From assembly GCA_024653485.1 (NCBI GenBank), contig JANLFY010000003.1, forward strand, positions 176,686-240,685: DNA of 64,000 nt, read 5' to 3'. The DNA comes from Bacillota bacterium (GTDB taxonomy: Bacteria > Bacillota > SHA-98 > UBA4971). The notes below the pieces were generated by a model. The model was not told the origin of the DNA. It saw only the letters and a program-made list of their open reading frames with translations, and did not search any database. A program made the position numbers and the translations under genes. Positions 36,540 through 45,026 of the stretch are shown here, piece after piece (position 1 is the stretch's first letter; each line of letters starts with the position of its first letter).

Positions 36540-39500
36540 TCACGCGGTTTCCTGTTGCCTGCCGTCGATATCAACGCCGTCCATCCTCACGGAGATGAGC
36601 TTCGACACGCCGGACTCCTCCATCGTCACGCCATAGAGGGCATCCGCCGCCTCCATCGTGCCCTTCCTGTGTGTCACGACCACGAACTGGCTCTTCAGAG
36701 CCGCATTCCTCAAGACATCGGTAAACCTTCCCACGTTGGCTTCGTCGAGAGCGGCATCTACCTCGTCGAGCACGCAGAACGGACTCGGTCGCACCTCGAG
36801 CAAGGCGAACACGAGCGCAGTGGCCGCAAGCGCCCGCTCCCCGGCTGAGAGAAGGCTCAGGCTCTGCAACTTCTTGCCAGGCGGCTCGGCGACTATCTCT
36901 ATTCCCGGGTCGGGCGCGTCATCGTCTGCCATCACGAGATCCGCTCTACCCCCGCCGAAGAGGCGTTCAAACTTCCTCCCGAACTCAGCCCGAATGGCCC
37001 CGAGCGTTTCTCGGAACCGCTTCTCGCTCTCGCCGTCCGAGCGCTCCATGACTTCCGCGAGGAACGCCCTCGCCCGCGCGACATCGTCGAGCCCGGAAGC
37101 CAGGTCTCCGTGGCGTTTCCTGAGCGCCTCGTACACATCGATGACGCCCTGATCGACCGGTCCAAGCGCTTCGATCTGCAGCCGGAGCGACCTCGCCCGC
37201 GCCGACGCCTCCTCCTTGTCGGACACTTCGCCCGCTCGCGCCCTCGCCTCGTCCACAGTCAAGTGGTAATTGCGTGCGAGTTCGTCCAAGACTCTATTCA
37301 CCCTCTCGACAAGCCCGGCTTCTTCGGCGGCAAGCGACGCTCTCGTCCTTTGGAGATCTTCGACTTCCCCTTGACACATCCGAAGTCTCGACTCCCTCTG
37401 GGCGAGACGCCGGACCATCTCCCGCCTCGCCTCCTTCGCCGAATCAAGAGCCCTGTCGACCTCGGCTTTCTCACGACCGAGTGACTCAAGCGCCGCGCGC
37501 GCGGACGCTATCTCCTCGCAAGCGGACTTGGACGTTCTCTCCACACGAGCCAGCTCTGCCTCCCTCGCTTCAACGTCAACCGCGATTTCCCTCGCCCGTG
37601 CGTCCAGCGCCCTCACCTGCTCGCGAAGCCCCGCTGCTTCCTGGGTCAGGGAAGCCACTCTCACTCGCAAGGCCGTCATTTCCTTGCCGATGTCCTCGCG
37701 TCTTCTCACTGTCTCCTGAAGGTCCGCTGTGAGCCTGGCTTGCGCCTCCGCCAGTTCCTGAGCGGCAGCCTCGAGGTGCGCGCGTTTCGCTTCAAGCCGC
37801 TCCCGAACTTCTCCTCTGTGGCGGTCATCCTGGCCGCCCGTCCCGAGCTCCTCCTGCAGCAGCCTCGCCTTCGAACGAGCTCTTTCCATTTCCCGGAGCG
37901 CCCGGGAGTGCACGGCCTCGGACCTCGCGATCTCCAGCTCGAGCTTCTGCCCTGCGACTCTCGCCTCTTCGACCGCCCTCTCGAGACGCGAGACCTCGTC
38001 CTGCGCCTTGGCAACGGCCAGCTCCGCTCGGTCACTTGCCCCCGCAAGCGATCCCAGCAGCGCCTCAAGCTCCTCGAGACGCTGCCTTGACGCGAGCGGC
38101 GTCTCACGCTGCTTTCCGCGCGCACCACTGCCCCCCGAGATCGCCCCTCCCGGCAACACGAGGTCGCCCTCAAGGGTCACCACTTTCAGCCGTGTGCCCG
38201 TGGCGCGCGCCACCTGCACCGCAGCGTCAAGATCCCGCGCGACGATGGTCCGCCCGAGGAGATGCTCCACGGCCTTTCTCACTCGTTCCTCGCACTGCAC
38301 AAGGGTCGATGCTCTCCCGATGACCCCATCCATCGAGAGCGCAGCCATTTCCGCTCTCGCCAGCTCCCCCGGCCTTATGAGGTCAAGGGGCAGGAAGGTG
38401 GCTCTCCCGAGCCCTCTTTCCTTTAGGTACCGCACAGCGGCTCTGGCATGGACGTCTCCTTCCACGATGACGTCGGAAAGGGCTTGTCCGAGGGCAGACT
38501 CGATTGCCTGCTCGTACTCGGGCGCCACCCTTATGCAGTCCGCGACGGCCCCGACTACGCCCGGTAGATCGCCTCGCCGCGCCGCAACGAGCACAGCTCG
38601 GGCACCGTGCGGATACCAATCGCCCGCGGATGCCGCTCTCCTCAATGCTTCCACCTGAAGGGACAGCTCCCGGACGCGCGTCCGGGTCTCCTGGCTCTCA
38701 GCCGTGAGACGCTTGAGCCTCTCCCGAGCCGCGCCGAGCTCGCGCTCGGCATCTGCCCTCTCGCGAGAGACGAGCCGAACCTTGGCGCCAAGCTCCTCCG
38801 ACCTCGCAGCCTCCTGGGCGGCCAGCGTCTCAGCCTCTCGGACCTCGGCGAGCGCCGCTTCGAGCTCTCTCCTCGACCGCTCCTCTTGCCTTGCCCGGGC
38901 AGAGTCCTCCAAAGCCATCTTGGCAAGCTCGTTCTTCACGTCCGCAGTGGCCGAGAGCACTTCTATGACATCCGCCTTTACCTTCTCCAACGCCTGTTCC
39001 GAAAGCCTCTGCGTATCGGCCAGGCCGCGTTCCTCCGTCTGTAGGGAGTCGAGGTGGTGAGAGACCTCCTCGAGCTCCGATGATATCTCGGCAAGCCTAG
39101 CCGACTTCGACTCGCTCTCACGGGCGCACGCCGCCAGGACCTGCCTATCCTTCTCCATGCTCTCTACAAGAGCCTGAACTTGCGCCGACTGTACCGTCTC
39201 CCGCTCGCGGGCCAGGGAGATCCTCCCCTCGGCTCTCTCGATCTCCGCAGCGAGCGCAGCCGCCCGCTCTTGCAGCCTGTCGCGCTCATCCTCCAGCGCT
39301 GAGAGCGCCTCCCTCTCACGGGAGATCTCATCCGACAGCGACTCCCTGAGACAACCTTCCTCGCCCAACTTCTCATCGATTTGAGAAGCCGCTCTAGTGA
39401 TCTCCGCTCTTCTCGCTTCCAGGGCGTCAAACTCCTTGAGGGCGAGAGCCAACTCGAGGTTGGCCAGCTCTTGGCAGCACTCCTGAAATCTCCTCGCCTC

Positions 39501-40130
39501 GTCGGCCTTAGCCTCGAGCGGTTCCATCTGCCTGGCAAGCTCGCCCAACACGTCTCTCACGCGGGTCGCGCAAAGATCGGCCGTGGCGAGCCGCCTTGCC
39601 GCATCCGCCCTGCGCGCCTTGTACTTGTGAATGCCCGCAGCCTCTTCGAAGAACGCTCTGCGCTCGTCCGAACCAGCACCAAGGATGGCATCGATCTTCC
39701 CTTGCTCGATTATAGAGTACCCTTCCTTGGCGGCACCCGTATCCATGAACAGCGTTTGAATGTCTTTCAAGCGGCACGGGATCCCGCAAATGGAGAAGTC
39801 GCTCTCGCCGGAGCGGTAGACACGTCTCGTCACCGCGACCTCCACAAAGTCCAAGGGAAGCGAGCCGTCGGAGTTGTCGAAGACGAGCGTGACCTCGGCG
39901 AACCCCAGCGGCTTCCTCGCGCCCGACCCGGCGAAGATGACGTCCTCCATCCTCGTTCCCCTGAGAACACGCGCGCTTTGCTCCCCGAGAACCCACCTGA
40001 CCGCGTCCGCGAGGTTGCTCTTGCCGCTTCCGTTGGGTCCCACTATAGCAGTCACGCCTGGCGAGAATTCGAGTTCCGTCTTGTCTGCGAAGGACTTGAA
40101 CCCGTAAAGCTCCATCCGTTTGAGGTACAA
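36540..40130 (-). CDS. smc: Chromosome segregation protein SMC
   Basis: Condensin ATPase that organises and segregates chromosomes with ScpAB. About 1196 residues: N-terminal head with Walker A VGPNGSGKSNLADAVRWVLGEQ, two long coiled coils (about residues 165-490 and 650-1010), a hinge (GVVGAVADCIRVAPEYEQAIESALG region), and the C-terminal head with the signature LLSAGERALAAT and Walker B FCVLDEVDAALDEAN. The signature has Ala instead of the usual second Gly (LSGGER). TTG at 40130 (GGAGG seven bases upstream) gives LYLKRMELYGFKSF, the family start. Confidence 0.96.
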   Translation of the reverse strand: MYLKRMELYGFKSFADKTELEFSPGVTAIVGPNGSGKSNLADAVRWVLGEQSARVLRGTRMEDVIFAGSGARKPLGFAEVTLVFDNSDGSLPLDFVEVAVTRRVYRSGESDFSICGIPCRLKDIQTLFMDTGAAKEGYSIIEQGKIDAILGAGSDERRAFFEEAAGIHKYKARRADAARRLATADLCATRVRDVLGELARQMEPLEAKADEARRFQECCQELANLELALALKEFDALEARRAEITRAASQIDEKLGEEGCLRESLSDEISREREALSALEDERDRLQERAAALAAEIERAEGRISLARERETVQSAQVQALVESMEKDRQVLAACARESESKSARLAEISSELEEVSHHLDSLQTEERGLADTQRLSEQALEKVKADVIEVLSATADVKNELAKMALEDSARARQEERSRRELEAALAEVREAETLAAQEAARSEELGAKVRLVSRERADAERELGAARERLKRLTAESQETRTRVRELSLQVEALRRAASAGDWYPHGARAVLVAARRGDLPGVVGAVADCIRVAPEYEQAIESALGQALSDVIVEGDVHARAAVRYLKERGLGRATFLPLDLIRPGELARAEMAALSMDGVIGRASTLVQCEERVRKAVEHLLGRTIVARDLDAAVQVARATGTRLKVVTLEGDLVLPGGAISGGSGARGKQRETPLASRQRLEELEALLGSLAGASDRAELAVAKAQDEVSRLERAVEEARVAGQKLELEIARSEAVHSRALREMERARSKARLLQEELGTGGQDDRHRGEVRERLEAKRAHLEAAAQELAEAQARLTADLQETVRRREDIGKEMTALRVRVASLTQEAAGLREQVRALDARAREIAVDVEAREAELARVERTSKSACEEIASARAALESLGREKAEVDRALDSAKEARREMVRRLAQRESRLRMCQGEVEDLQRTRASLAAEEAGLVERVNRVLDELARNYHLTVDEARARAGEVSDKEEASARARSLRLQIEALGPVDQGVIDVYEALRKRHGDLASGLDDVARARAFLAEVMERSDGESEKRFRETLGAIRAEFGRKFERLFGGGRADLVMADDDAPDPGIEIVAEPPGKKLQSLSLLSAGERALAATALVFALLEVRPSPFCVLDEVDAALDEANVGRFTDVLRNAALKSQFVVVTHRKGTMEAADALYGVTMEESGVSKLISVRMDGVDIDGRQQETA

Positions 40131-40274
40131 AGCGAATCCTCCCTGGGCGTGCGCCTGCGCCCGGACGCGCCGCCCTACGCGAGTGCTACGCTCACAGGCG
40201 AAGGGCCGACCCGAATCGACACGCATCGCCCCGGATTGCACTGGTATTGTATCACAGCCCTAACCAAAAGAGAA

Positions 40275-41000
40275 TCATCCAGGGAAGAGCGATGCCTGGC
40301 GCCCTGACATGCATCCCACGTGGACCTCCATGCAGAGGTCTCGCCTTCTGCGGGCCTTTGAGGGAATCTCCGGGTGAACGAGAGATCCGTACCTGTGCAA
40401 CAGCCGCCGGAGCTTGGCCTTCACGCGAGTGCGAGCGTTGTCCACAGACTTGGGATCGAGTCCCATGGCCCTCCCGATCTCCCCAGTCGTGTACCCGCGG
40501 AGCAGGAGCGCGGTAACGGCGTACTCGAGCATCGAGAGATGACTCCGCAGCACCTGTTCCACACGGGCGCTCGCCCACTCGTTTTCGACAACTGCCTCGG
40601 GATCCACGTAGTCGCCGGCGAGGAGGTCCAGCACCATCCTGGTCTCCTCCTTGTCCACGTACGAGTACAGCGATATGGCCTGGTTGAGGGCTTTCTGCTT
40701 GCTGCTGGTGTGACGCCGAAGGCTGTTGTATATCTTCCTGATGATACAGAGGTACGCGAAGGAGCTGAACTTCACTCCTGGTTTGCCCGGGTCGTACTGG
40801 CGAATGGCATCCAGCAAGCCCACCAGCCCGTCCTGAATCAAATCCTCGAACTCCGACACGGGCAGACTCGGGGCCGTGGTCCGCACGATGTGCCTGACCA
40901 TGGGGACGTATTTCCTTATGAGTTCGTCCCGCGCCCCCTCCTGCCCTGACCTCGACCGCATCAACAACTCCATGTCGAGCTCCTGGTTGGTGTCGGACAT
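40275..41000 (-). CDS. sigH: Sporulation-type sigma factor, SigH-like
   Basis: About 241 residues of a sigma-70 family factor: region 2 (EFEDLIQDGLVGLLDAIRQYDP; FSSFAYLCIIRKIYNSLRR) and region 4 (EYAVTALLLRGYTTGEIGRAMGL, KSVDNARTRVKAKLRRLL), with a middle part DPEAVVENEWASARVEQVL. The KSVDNARTRVKAKL helix and DPEAVVENE resemble B. subtilis SigH. It has about 35 additional C-terminal residues. ATG at 41000 (GAGGGGGAT upstream). SigH proper normally sits near secE/nusG, so this could be the true SigH displaced or a paralogue; which one cannot be settled here. Between smc and spoVS. Confidence 0.8.
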   Translation of the reverse strand: MSDTNQELDMELLMRSRSGQEGARDELIRKYVPMVRHIVRTTAPSLPVSEFEDLIQDGLVGLLDAIRQYDPGKPGVKFSSFAYLCIIRKIYNSLRRHTSSKQKALNQAISLYSYVDKEETRMVLDLLAGDYVDPEAVVENEWASARVEQVLRSHLSMLEYAVTALLLRGYTTGEIGRAMGLDPKSVDNARTRVKAKLRRLLHRYGSLVHPEIPSKARRRRDLCMEVHVGCMSGRQASLFPG

Positions 41001-41221
41001 GACCCATCCCCCTCGACAGGCCGCCTCTGCATCCGCTAGATATATACTTCCGACGAGAGGGGAATATGATCTCTCGGATGGACAGGGCTCGCGACCGGAT
41101 TGGCCAAGTCGTGGGCGTGCGTGACGCAAGGGCCTTCGGGGTTCACGTCAAGCGGAGTCGACGACAAAGAGCCGAAGGGGCGTCAAGTCGGGGGGCCGCT
41201 GCTCCACGAGAAAGAGGAGGT
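41001..41221. other. Gap upstream of the sigma factor gene
   Basis: No gene seen. A TATATA/TATATC sequence near 41037-41046 on the minus strand could be a -10 element for the sigma factor gene but has no convincing -35 partner. The rest of the gap up to spoVS holds the spoVS terminator. Confidence 0.4.
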
Positions 41222-41333: not shown

Positions 41334-41594
41334 TCACCTAGGCTCGACTATGAACTTTATCGCGGTCCTCTCCTCCCCATCGATCTGGATCTCGGCGAAA
41401 GCAGGGATGGTCACGAGGTCGATCCCATTAGGCGCAACAAATCCTCGCGTGATGGCGATTGCCTTGACAGCCTGGTTGACAGCTCCCGCCCCGACCGCCT
41501 GGACTTCCGCGGATCCCCTTTCTCGGAGCACCGCGGCAAGGGCGCCTGCCACCGACTTGGGCTTTGATTGCGCTGATACCTTAAGTACCTCCAC
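41334..41594 (-). CDS. spoVS: Stage V sporulation protein S
   Basis: 86 residues, the normal SpoVS length and nearly consensus sequence: EVLKVSAQSKPKSVAGALAAVLRERG, VQAVGAGAVNQAVKAIAITRG, GIDLVTIPAFAEIQIDGEERTAIKFIVEPR. SpoVS is an Alba-like small protein required for normal septation and coat assembly in B. subtilis; molecular role unsettled. GTG at 41594 has GGGAGGTAG five bases upstream. About 100 bases after an unknown gene. Confidence 0.96.
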   Translation of the reverse strand: MEVLKVSAQSKPKSVAGALAAVLRERGSAEVQAVGAGAVNQAVKAIAITRGFVAPNGIDLVTIPAFAEIQIDGEERTAIKFIVEPR

Positions 41595-41693
41595 GCCTTC
41601 TACCTCCCGTTCCCAGGTTTTGGACCATGCGCTTCTTGCCATATGTATATTCAACGTCACACTGGAAGATCCTTCGCATGGCGTCACTCGTGG

Positions 41694-42539
41694 CTATTTC
41701 GGTATTATGGGCCGAACACGCGGCCTTCTTGTTTCGTAGGGTCGGGGCAGGAAAGGCGGGGGTTCACCCTTGGCCTCCCTGATCACCTCGCTCTTCCATA
41801 CGAGGAGTCTTCTGTTGATCGCATCCATTGTCGCACGCGCGACGGCGTCGGTCTCGTAGGTTCGCACCGGTGCTGTCCCAATGAGCCGCTCCTCGCCCTG
41901 CGTTCCGATGGCACTTACGGACACGAGCGCGACGTCCTGGTCGAGCATCCTGAGGAGACGCACCTCGCCCACGGAGAGCATGCTCCTCGTCCGTAGGAAC
42001 GCCTCCACCGCCGCAATGGTCGCCTGCGCCACTACCTGATACTGGCCGTACTTCGTGGCTGGCCCCACCGCTGTGCCCGTGTACACCCTCCCCTGCAGGC
42101 CCAGCTCCACGACGGAATCGGCTGTGTGCTTGCCGAGATTGAGGTACACGCGGCCGATCTTGAGCCTGTGGCCCACGAGCGCCTCCAGCTCCATCTGTGG
42201 CATGTCCTTGAATACGCAGACACCGATGCGTCTGTGGTCTATCTTCAGTCCCCACTTTGCGTAGAGCACCGTCTCTATATCCCGTACCAGCTCCTGCGGC
42301 GAGCGCAGCTCGATCGACGTGCAATGCACCTCGGTAATCATGCGCTTGCCGTCCACGATGATCCTCACGGCGTTGAGCCCCGGGATTTGGGAAAGCACCT
42401 CGTTGACGTCCTCGATGTCAACGTCCTCCGGGACTATGTCATTGTACGGTACTTTGCGCCACTCGGGCCCCAACTCATGCCAGGCCAGTCGACGGCGCGG
42501 TATGCGCCTTTGTCGCGTATCCTCACGGGTTGCGACCAC
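41694..42539 (-). CDS. Uncharacterised protein with internal repeat, between rnc and spoVS
   Basis: About 281 residues, soluble by appearance, family not recognised. N-terminal third: basic, then VDIEDVNEVLSQIPGLNAVRIIVDGKRMITEVHCTSIELRSPQELVRDIETVLYAKWG, resembling an alpha-beta ACT-like unit. C-terminal half has two related alpha-beta units: one with GTAVGPATKYGQYQVVAQATIAAVEAFL, one with GTAPVRTYETDAVARATMDAINRRL; the shared pattern is GTA...VA-AT--A-----L. Ends with a basic Pro/Arg tail. GTG at 42539 (AAGGAGG eight bases upstream) lies just after the rnc stop. Placement beside spoVS and a sigma factor suggests a sporulation link; this is inference. Confidence 0.75.
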   Translation of the reverse strand: MVATREDTRQRRIPRRRLAWHELGPEWRKVPYNDIVPEDVDIEDVNEVLSQIPGLNAVRIIVDGKRMITEVHCTSIELRSPQELVRDIETVLYAKWGLKIDHRRIGVCVFKDMPQMELEALVGHRLKIGRVYLNLGKHTADSVVELGLQGRVYTGTAVGPATKYGQYQVVAQATIAAVEAFLRTRSMLSVGEVRLLRMLDQDVALVSVSAIGTQGEERLIGTAPVRTYETDAVARATMDAINRRLLVWKSEVIREAKGEPPPFLPRPYETRRPRVRPIIPK

Positions 42540-42553
42540 TCGCCATTCCTCCT

Positions 42554-43342
42554 TCAACCCTCAACGCGGGCGCCCCCAGCACCAGGCAGGAGACCCAGTC
42601 TAGCGAGGGCGTCGGCCGCTGCGGCTTGTTCCGCGGCTTTTTTCGACTTGCCGCTTCCGAACCCCACCGAGCTGCCCGCGAGCCTTGCCACGACCGTGAA
42701 CGTTTTGTCATGGTCCGGGCCCGCCTCGCGCACGACCTCGTATTCCGGGATAGATTTCTCCCTTTTCTGAAAGAACTCCTGCAGGATGGCCTTGTAATTT
42801 CTCGTCTCCTCGGCGTCCGCGCCTGCGTCCGGTCGAGGGCCGGGACGAAGTTCCCTCACCGCGAGCCGCTTTGCGGCCTCCAAGCCCTGGTCGAGAAAGA
42901 CCGCGCCCAAGATGGACTCGAACGCGTCAGCCAGCACCGAAGGCAGGCGCCGCCCACCGGAGGCCTCAAGGCTTCGGCCGACCCGCAGGAAGTCCGCTAT
43001 TCCGAGCCGGCCCGCCGCCTCAGCGAGCGCTTTCTCGCTCACGGCCCGGCCCAGAATCGTCGAGAGTTCGCCCTCTGGAGCCTCCGGGCACGTAACGTAA
43101 AGATGCCAGGCAGTCACCAGCTTGAGCACGGCATCACCGAGGAACTCCAGGCGCTCGTTTCCCGCGAGGGGGCCGCCACCCTCGAACGAGCTGTGGGTCA
43201 CGGCCTGCAGCAGCAAGTTCGGATCGTTGAAGCGAACACCGATGATCTCCTGAAGCCTCGTGAGCCCGGGGATTTCCATGCCGTCCCTCGCAGCCGCGGT
43301 CAAGTGCCTCGTTCTGGCGTAGTCCGCTCGACCTTCATCCAT
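42554..43342 (-). CDS. rnc: Ribonuclease III
   Basis: Double-strand RNA endonuclease for rRNA precursors and mRNA. About 262 residues: catalytic domain with the signature NERLEFLGDAVL, the second carboxylate site in ADAFESILGAVFLDQG, then a dsRNA-binding domain (NYKAILQEFFQKR; PDHDKTFTVVARLAG; GSGKSKKAAEQAAAADAL). ATG at 43342 lies ten bases after GGAGGGG; the open frame continues to 43432 with Glu/Gly-rich codons. Order acpP/fabF-rnc-smc is conserved, but three genes are inserted before smc here. Confidence 0.95.
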   Translation of the reverse strand: MDEGRADYARTRHLTAAARDGMEIPGLTRLQEIIGVRFNDPNLLLQAVTHSSFEGGGPLAGNERLEFLGDAVLKLVTAWHLYVTCPEAPEGELSTILGRAVSEKALAEAAGRLGIADFLRVGRSLEASGGRRLPSVLADAFESILGAVFLDQGLEAAKRLAVRELRPGPRPDAGADAEETRNYKAILQEFFQKREKSIPEYEVVREAGPDHDKTFTVVARLAGSSVGFGSGKSKKAAEQAAAADALARLGLLPGAGGARVEG

Positions 43343-43722
43343 AGCCGTGCGCCCCTCCTTATGCACAGAGGGGAGGCCGGATCGTCTCCAGCCTCCCCCG
43401 TTCTCCTGTTCGTCCTCTCTTTGTCCTCTCATTGCGTCCTCTTGACAGGCACTCTCGATAGGCCCACAGGTGGCAGCAACCCTCCCCGCCGCTCCCGCCT
43501 GATGTGCACCGTCTCATACGCCCAGTCCCGCCGCCTCCGCCTGCCTGCACTCCGCCTGCCTGCAACGGAGTGCGGCGCCTCGAGGTCCGCCCCATTCTCC
43601 ACGACGAGCAATGCGTCGGTGGGCGGTCGCGTCGTGTTAGCGGACTCACGCCGCCGGCTCAGCGACCCCGCAGCGCAGCGTTTTCCCGGCCGCGTGAACG
43701 AGTATGGCACTCCGTCGTTCTC
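43343..43722. other. 380-base gap between fabF and rnc
   Basis: No credible gene: short open frames here have no family features. An inverted repeat, GCACTCCG (43548-43555) and CGGAGTGC (43567-43574) with an 11-base loop, may be part of a terminator of the fab operon, but no U-tract follows. No good promoter for rnc was found. Confidence 0.5.
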
Positions 43723-44964
43723 TTACGCGTCGAACCTCTTCAAGACGAGTACCCCGTTGTGCCCTCCAAACCCAAAGGAGTTGCACATGGCCACGTCCAC
43801 CTGCCCCTTGCGCGCCACGTTTGGCACGTAGTCCAGATCGCACTCGGGGTCCGGGTCCTCGTAATTGATGGTAGCAGGGATCAACCCGGTGGAGATGGCG
43901 AACAGGCACGCGGCCGCGCCTACGCCCCCCGCCGCCCCGAGGAGGTGACCTGTCATCGACTTGGTCGAACTTATCGCCACCTTTGGCGCCAGGGGACCGA
44001 ACAACTCCTTTATGGCCATCGTCTCACACCTGTCGTTCAGGGGCGTCGAAGTGCCGTGGGCATTGATGTAGTCGACATCGGCCGGAGAGAGCCCCGCGTC
44101 GACAAGCGCCCTCTGCATCGCGAGCAGAGCACCCTTGCCCTCGGGGTCTGGCTCGACTATGTGGTGCGCATCATCGCTCGCGCCGTACCCGACCATCTCG
44201 GCATAAGGGTCCGCCCCACGCCTAAGCGCATGATCGAGCCGCTCCAGGACCAACACGACGCTGCCTTCTCCCATTACGAATCCGTCGCGTCCCCTGTCAA
44301 ACGGCCGACAGGCCTTCTCGGGCTCATCGTTCCGGCGAGACATGGCTCGCAACGCGCAGAACCCGGCAAACCCCGCGGGCGTGATCGCAGCTTCGGCGCC
44401 CCCTGCCAACACGACGTCTGCGTCACCCCTCTGAATCACCCGGAACGCTTCGCCGAGGGCGTTAGTGGCCGCCGCGCACGCGGTCGAAACGGTGATGTTG
44501 GGGCCTCTGGCGCCGGTGAATATCGCCACCTGCCCCGAAGCCATGTTCGGGATCATCATCGGGATGAAGAACGGACTCACTCTCCGAGGCCCCTCAGCCT
44601 GCAGCGCCCCTACTTGCTCCTCGAGCACCTCCAGGCCGCCGATGCCGCATCCCATCACAACGCCGACGCGGTCCCGGTTGGAGCCGTCGACGGTGAGCCC
44701 GGCATCGGTCAGAGCCAATCGCGCAGCCGCCACGGCAAACTGCGTGAACCTGGCCAGTCGGTGAGCCTCGCGCTCCGTCATGTAATCGGTGGCGACGAAG
44801 TCGCGCACCTCGCCTGCCATCTGCGTCCTGAAAGGAGAAGGGTCGAACCTCGTCACCCTTCCGATACCGTTCCGTGACGTCCTCAGGCCATCGAAAAACG
44901 CTTCACGGCCTATCCCGATGGGGGTGACCACGCCCAGGCCCGTCACCACCACTCGCTCAGTCAT
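43723..44964 (-). CDS. fabF: Beta-ketoacyl-ACP synthase II
   Basis: Condensing enzyme for fatty-acid chain elongation. About 413 residues: RVVVTGLGVVTPIG, active-site Cys in TVSTACAAATNAL (about residue 163), His in NAHGTSTPLNDRCE and His in STKSMTGHLLGAAGG. ATG at 44964 behind GGGGTGAGGG. Last gene of the fapR-controlled operon; ACP gene is immediately upstream. Confidence 0.97.
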   Translation of the reverse strand: MTERVVVTGLGVVTPIGIGREAFFDGLRTSRNGIGRVTRFDPSPFRTQMAGEVRDFVATDYMTEREAHRLARFTQFAVAAARLALTDAGLTVDGSNRDRVGVVMGCGIGGLEVLEEQVGALQAEGPRRVSPFFIPMMIPNMASGQVAIFTGARGPNITVSTACAAATNALGEAFRVIQRGDADVVLAGGAEAAITPAGFAGFCALRAMSRRNDEPEKACRPFDRGRDGFVMGEGSVVLVLERLDHALRRGADPYAEMVGYGASDDAHHIVEPDPEGKGALLAMQRALVDAGLSPADVDYINAHGTSTPLNDRCETMAIKELFGPLAPKVAISSTKSMTGHLLGAAGGVGAAACLFAISTGLIPATINYEDPDPECDLDYVPNVARKGQVDVAMCNSFGFGGHNGVLVLKRFDA

Positions 44965-45026
44965 TCCCTCACCCCACACAAAGCTCCCCCGGCACCCTTC
45001 TCAAGCGTGCAGGCCGATCTCTGGAC

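Follow-up and report, generated by a model that had tools for sequence, protein, structure and literature searches.

FAM, a conserved unnamed gene between rnc and spoVS in a Bacillota genome, encodes a predicted two-domain protein with a LeuA-type C-terminal half

Results

Gene structure and distribution of FAM

A 64,000-nucleotide stretch of a Bacillota bacterium genome (GenBank assembly GCA_024653485.1, contig JANLFY010000003.1, positions 176,686 to 240,685), called the window below, contains an uncharacterised gene between rnc and spoVS. We use FAM as a working name for this coding sequence, which is located at 41694..42539 and encodes 281 amino acid residues; like all window features described here, it lies on the reverse strand. 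The longest mechanical open reading frame (ORF) at the locus, 41694-42557, begins with TTG and encodes 287 residues, and the residue numbers given below are counted from this frame. The GTG at 42539 is the better start. It is preceded, with an 8-base spacer, by the perfect Shine-Dalgarno match AAGGAGG (42548..42554), read from the sequence, whose first base also closes the rnc stop codon (42554-42556). Judged from this overlap with the rnc stop region, the start of FAM is sited for translational coupling to rnc. Comparison with four same-genus copies gave dN/dS values of about 0.07-0.09, indicating strong purifying selection, and the values were lowest in the N-terminal domain. The Shine-Dalgarno sequence at the GTG and the low dN/dS establish FAM as a real gene, as a first-pass annotation made from the sequence alone had proposed for an ORF of about 281 residues.

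That annotation had recognised no family, and database scans bore this out: the window FAM had no Pfam match, and its matches to NCBIfam models and PDB sequences were at chance level only. Relatives were detected by tblastn in 22 of 41 related genomes. In a sample of 249 Bacillota genomes, in which the incompleteness of metagenome-assembled genomes can mimic gene absence, homologues were found in 103 genomes by a single-protein search and in 107 (∼43%) by a profile search. Family members are typically about 215 residues long; the window FAM has additional N- and C-terminal tails, which evolve faster. No relatives were found in the viral contigs searched. A copy on a 51-kb Natranaerobius plasmid (NZ_CP144220.1) is annotated merely as 'hypothetical protein'. 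FAM is a conserved unnamed bacterial gene, and neither Pfam nor NCBIfam has a dedicated model for the members scanned.

The C-terminal half of FAM

The C-terminal half consists of two units of the LeuA type, each with the order beta-beta-beta-alpha, which were delimited by profile-profile comparison, AlphaFold2 modelling and a repeat test. Unit 1 is encoded at 41988..42167 and unit 2 at 41790..41978. Two similar units about 65 residues apart had been noted in the first-pass annotation and proved to be genuine. Unit 1 resembled unit 2 in the window protein (shuffle p = 0.007), with the equivalent glycines G161 and G227 lying 66 residues apart, and the resemblance held over the whole family by profile-profile comparison (P = 2e-5). 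The repeat appears to be old and diverged, because only 21 of 112 members reached p < 0.05 as single sequences.

LeuA_dimer (PF08502), the allosteric domain at the C-terminus of 2-isopropylmalate synthase, was the commonest Pfam match in the family, found in 11 of 40 members with a best E-value of 6e-4, below the threshold. The Pfam scan of the window FAM itself returned neither LeuA_dimer nor, anywhere on the 281 residues, the HMGL-like catalytic barrel of 2-isopropylmalate synthase. When the profile of the C-terminal half was aligned by hhalign with the LeuA C-termini of relatives, the probability was 94.1% (P 1.3e-7) over 115 columns spanning both units; a smaller, earlier profile had given 83.6%. 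Twenty other families used as controls stayed below 1% and the reversed control gave 0.2%. Since the LeuA family had been selected from the 24,736 Pfam models scanned, the P value was conservatively corrected for that number, to about 0.003. Profile comparison shows, at this level, that the C-terminal half of FAM is homologous to the LeuA-type allosteric domain.

Structure prediction agreed with this assignment. AlphaFold2 models, built from an alignment of five close homologues, gave the C-terminal half as beta-beta-beta-alpha-beta-beta-beta-alpha at low confidence, both in the full-length protein and in the isolated domain, which is the topology reported for the regulatory domain of Mycobacterium tuberculosis LeuA (MtLeuA; PMC2704214). 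A Foldseek search with the whole model placed MtLeuA chains at rank 8 (3hpz) and rank 10 (1sr9), with weak E-values.

No LeuA_dimer match was found in the window's own genome, and five same-genus genomes have one each; an assembly gap may account for this.

The N-terminal domain of FAM

The N-terminal domain, encoded at 42204..42422, was delimited by family alignment, column conservation, AlphaFold2 and VIA-align. It was modelled as alpha-beta-beta-alpha-beta, a ferredoxin-like arrangement, and for most of the domain the predicted local distance difference test (pLDDT) score was about 70-84. The family alignment contains the near-invariant motif IxEIHVLAxxxRSPKQIVRDIES...IDHKKISVAQ, and the charged residues of the domain are highly conserved. 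Near-invariant residues are E76, H78, R85, R92, D93, E95 and D107 (ExH, R and RDxE), and their conservation suggests a functional surface.

The closest structures found by VIA-align were the C-terminal domains of CDF/ZnT transporters (Z ∼6), among them that of CzcD (6vd9_D; Z 6.0, 67 residues, root mean square deviation 2.0), and Foldseek gave a like match. A test for sequence homology to the corresponding family, ZT_dimer (PF16916), did not demonstrate it: hhalign gave 27.9%, and the reversed control reached 23.5%. The resemblance is thus one of fold, and FAM has no transporter part. The first-pass annotation had described an ACT-like N-terminal unit. This holds only as far as the ferredoxin-like fold: the fold class is compatible with an ACT domain, and no ACT family was among the Pfam matches of 40 FAM members at E-values up to 1.

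Neighbouring genes and genomic settings

The placement of FAM between rnc and spoVS, as first annotated, was confirmed. The rnc gene (42554..43432) encodes RNase III (TIGR02191, 207.6 bits, above the cut-off), and spoVS (41334..41594) encodes an 86-residue SpoVS (PF04232, 131.7 bits, E 7.9e-39) from a GTG at 41594, a start derived from the usual SpoVS N-terminus and from ORF lengths among relatives. Preceding rnc is the fab cluster plsX-fabH-fabD-fabG-acpP-fabF, which ends with fabF (43723..44979) and was assigned by conserved order. Beyond spoVS lies sigX (40275..41129), which had been described as a SigH-type sigma factor. It is SigH-like but not a SigH equivalog, as it scored 104-105 bits against TIGR02859, far below the cut-off of 294.8; the true SigH of this genome is encoded elsewhere (contig C7; 376.8 bits). 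The next gene of the conserved block is smc (36540..40241), assigned from the ORF list and conserved order. The sigX paralogue keeps its place between spoVS and smc in several lineages. An Rfam scan found no RNA family in the window.

Between FAM and spoVS lies a candidate sigma-H-type promoter of spoVS, GAAGGATCT-N11-GTTGAAT (41649..41675), identified by consensus match and conservation. The consensus RNAGGAWWW / RNNGAATWW has been reported for sigma-H-dependent spoVS genes of Bacillus thuringiensis (PMC8510167). Within the window alone such a match is not rare, three having been found against 0.56 expected; the evidence for the promoter is its conservation at one place. Matching elements occur in genus mates, in class relatives, in the family-level lineage f2 and in most relatives that lack FAM. 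Since spoVS has this conserved promoter of its own downstream of FAM, it is probably switched on separately from FAM.

Three settings of FAM were recognised. The arrangement of the window, fab cluster-rnc-FAM-spoVS-SigH-like sigma factor-smc-ftsY, was found in six family-level lineages (the window genus, f2, f27, f90, f82 and f105). Outside the window genus, FAM is linked to spoVS at eight loci, with gaps of 19-176 bases, and a single origin of this subfamily is compatible with the tree test (approximately unbiased test, p-AU 0.28).

Most copies examined (60 of 75) belong to a setting with the general order hpf-FAM-MASE9-HD-GYP-DUF5317-secA-prfB. In this hpf-type setting hpf lies at most 1700 bases upstream of FAM in 38 of the 60 copies, and an HD-domain gene at most 520 bases downstream in 46; in 11 copies FAM is followed directly by secA at a distance of at most 300 bases, without an intervening HD gene. 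The order FAM-HD-DUF5317 is kept away from hpf and secA at ten loci, and the same order of FAM, HD-GYP and DUF5317 is found on the Natranaerobius plasmid. The genome of the window itself has a second FAM copy in the hpf-type setting (L043:8123-9121, 332 residues). This copy has a long, low-complexity linker between its domains, and the open frames of same-genus copies in that setting are similarly long. Between hpf and FAM at the same locus (L043:6775-8070), as in several genomes, is a gene for an uncharacterised protein of about 430 residues (our cluster c20) that has no convincing Pfam match. Rfam found no riboswitch, including the cyclic di-GMP (c-di-GMP) type, in nine hpf/HD-type loci.

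The third setting belongs to a small separate clade. In three genomes FAM is directly downstream of a Glu/Leu/Phe/Val dehydrogenase gene, and in a fourth it directly follows a 2-oxoacid oxidoreductase operon that is led by vorB and also holds a Glu/Leu/Phe/Val dehydrogenase gene and a butyrate-kinase-like gene. Nearby are DUF3866 and NUDIX genes and, judged by eye, apparent spoIIM, ald, spo0A or spoIIP genes. At the loci L216:9546-11504, L091:4128-6083 and L214:12039-14333, FAM is immediately 3′ of the dehydrogenase gene, and DUF3866 comes next in two of them. A literature search on DUF5317, MASE9 and LeuA-like sporulation proteins returned nothing informative for FAM.

Discussion

FAM probably acts as a regulator that responds to a small molecule; a protein dedicated to the spore is the less likely reading. 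The analysis establishes the coding gene, its family, the two-domain architecture, the LeuA-type homology and the genomic settings, whereas dimerisation, ligand, output and partner are inferred. The most economical reading, because of the LeuA precedent and of the clade that lies beside genes of branched-chain amino acid and 2-oxo acid metabolism, would be a dimeric, ligand-responsive regulator with a LeuA-type C-terminal half, and we give this reading an even chance of being right. FAM would then be a cytosolic protein whose LeuA-type domain, by precedent, would serve as a ligand-binding dimerisation module and whose ferredoxin-like domain at the N-terminus, which bears the ExH, R and RDxE residues, would form the output part that contacts a partner. 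Binding of the ligand would change the output domain, and a neighbouring process would be tuned. In the hpf-type setting the target may be the membrane MASE9-HD-GYP protein together with HPF- and SecA-linked functions, the HD-GYP protein being the most consistent candidate partner; in the window it may be something tied to the fab-rnc-spoVS-smc block.

FAM differs from LeuA in several respects. It has no catalytic TIM barrel, and its LeuA-type domain is fused to an unrelated N-terminal domain. In MtLeuA the residues G531, G533, L535, A536 and Y554 are reported to act in leucine binding or feedback (PMC2704214). In the hhalign alignment with MtLeuA, FAM retains only the glycine aligned with G531 among the residues compared; G533, residues 535-536 and Tyr554 are not retained, the position of Tyr554 is acidic, and at the first glycine loop FAM carries about 8 inserted residues. 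Because of these losses and the insertion, binding of leucine in the manner of LeuA is unlikely in FAM. The ligand may more readily be a branched-chain amino acid, a 2-oxo acid or an acyl derivative, although any ligand named by analogy is a guess. Besides the lost residues, several points weigh against the regulator reading. No FAM member was seen above the LeuA_dimer gathering score, the printed score being 16.1 against 24.9 bits. Since the modelling could draw on close relatives only, the mean pLDDT of the C-terminal half is low, at 52 in the full-length model and 45 in the isolated domain; with a model this poor, a Foldseek search with the C-terminal half alone gave no convincing match, and LeuA was absent from the matches shown. 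The dehydrogenase-linked clade comprises few genomes, and the HD and spo genes found near FAM are common genes in these genomes.

One alternative is that FAM is a specific modulator of the adjacent MASE9-HD-GYP protein, and hence of c-di-GMP signalling, with the spoVS-linked copy having arisen by duplication and moved into the fab-rnc operon. The persistence of the FAM-HD-DUF5317 order away from hpf and secA and on the plasmid favours this, as does the longer second copy beside an HD gene in the window's genome. However, the copies followed directly by secA have no intervening HD gene, no HD gene neighbours the copies linked to spoVS or to a dehydrogenase within the stretches read, and the nine loci scanned gave no c-di-GMP riboswitch; we regard this alternative as unlikely. 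Still more doubtful is an accessory role in ribosome or RNA metabolism, with HPF or RNase III. The nearness of hpf in the 38 copies counted above and the presence of rnc upstream of most spoVS-linked copies would fit such a role, and RafH/HPF chains were among the structural matches to residues 170-266. Profile-profile comparison of FAM with HPF, however, gave only 0.3%, and the beta-alpha-beta-beta-beta-alpha order of residues 170-266, where the model has low confidence, is accounted for by the LeuA-type fold.

A further alternative is that FAM is dedicated to sporulation, acting together with SpoVS and inherited as an rnc-FAM-spoVS unit, the role toward which the first annotation leaned. The linkage in six family-level lineages and its compatibility with one origin speak for it, and FAM is enriched among genomes with SpoIVA (100/211 against 7/38; Fisher p 0.001, in a test that ignores shared descent). 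Linkage with spoVS, which the first annotation had put up for checking across spore formers, holds in one subfamily and is absent in most of the family. Sister-genus spore-formers (G006-G010) and two class relatives (G014 and G016) keep rnc-spoVS-sigX-smc without FAM between, and with its own conserved promoter spoVS does not need regulation shared with FAM. FAM is present without a SpoIVA match in four genomes at least 97% complete (G051, G207, G195 and G217), and the near-complete G051 and G207 have no SpoVS match either, so that for the family as a whole FAM occurs in apparent non-spore-formers without spoVS, the case that the first annotation had named as refuting its view. SpoVS is itself widespread beyond spore-formers (PMC3533761), with which the controls in our genome survey agree. 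SpoVS shares with FAM its genomic neighbourhood only; profile comparison gave no sequence relation (0.9% and 0.3%). Together with the kinship of the C-terminal half to a non-sporulation allosteric domain, the two genomes speak against the sporulation-specific role, which we consider rather improbable.

Returning to the regulator reading, a wider role can be imagined, though we would call it a long shot. Free-standing LeuA-fold sensors might signal the supply of branched-chain amino acids, 2-oxo acids or acyl groups to several programmes of Bacillota. The hpf/HD-GYP copy might serve c-di-GMP turnover and ribosome hibernation, and the fab-rnc-spoVS copy might serve the synthesis of branched-chain lipids or entry into sporulation.

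For the annotation of these genomes, the vicinity of spoVS is an unsafe sign of spore function, as spoVS retains its own sigma-H-type promoter with or without FAM. For the family, a LeuA-type allosteric domain outside a biosynthetic enzyme would give a handle for ligand screening on a conserved gene that lies beside hpf, secA, HD-GYP and spoVS genes.
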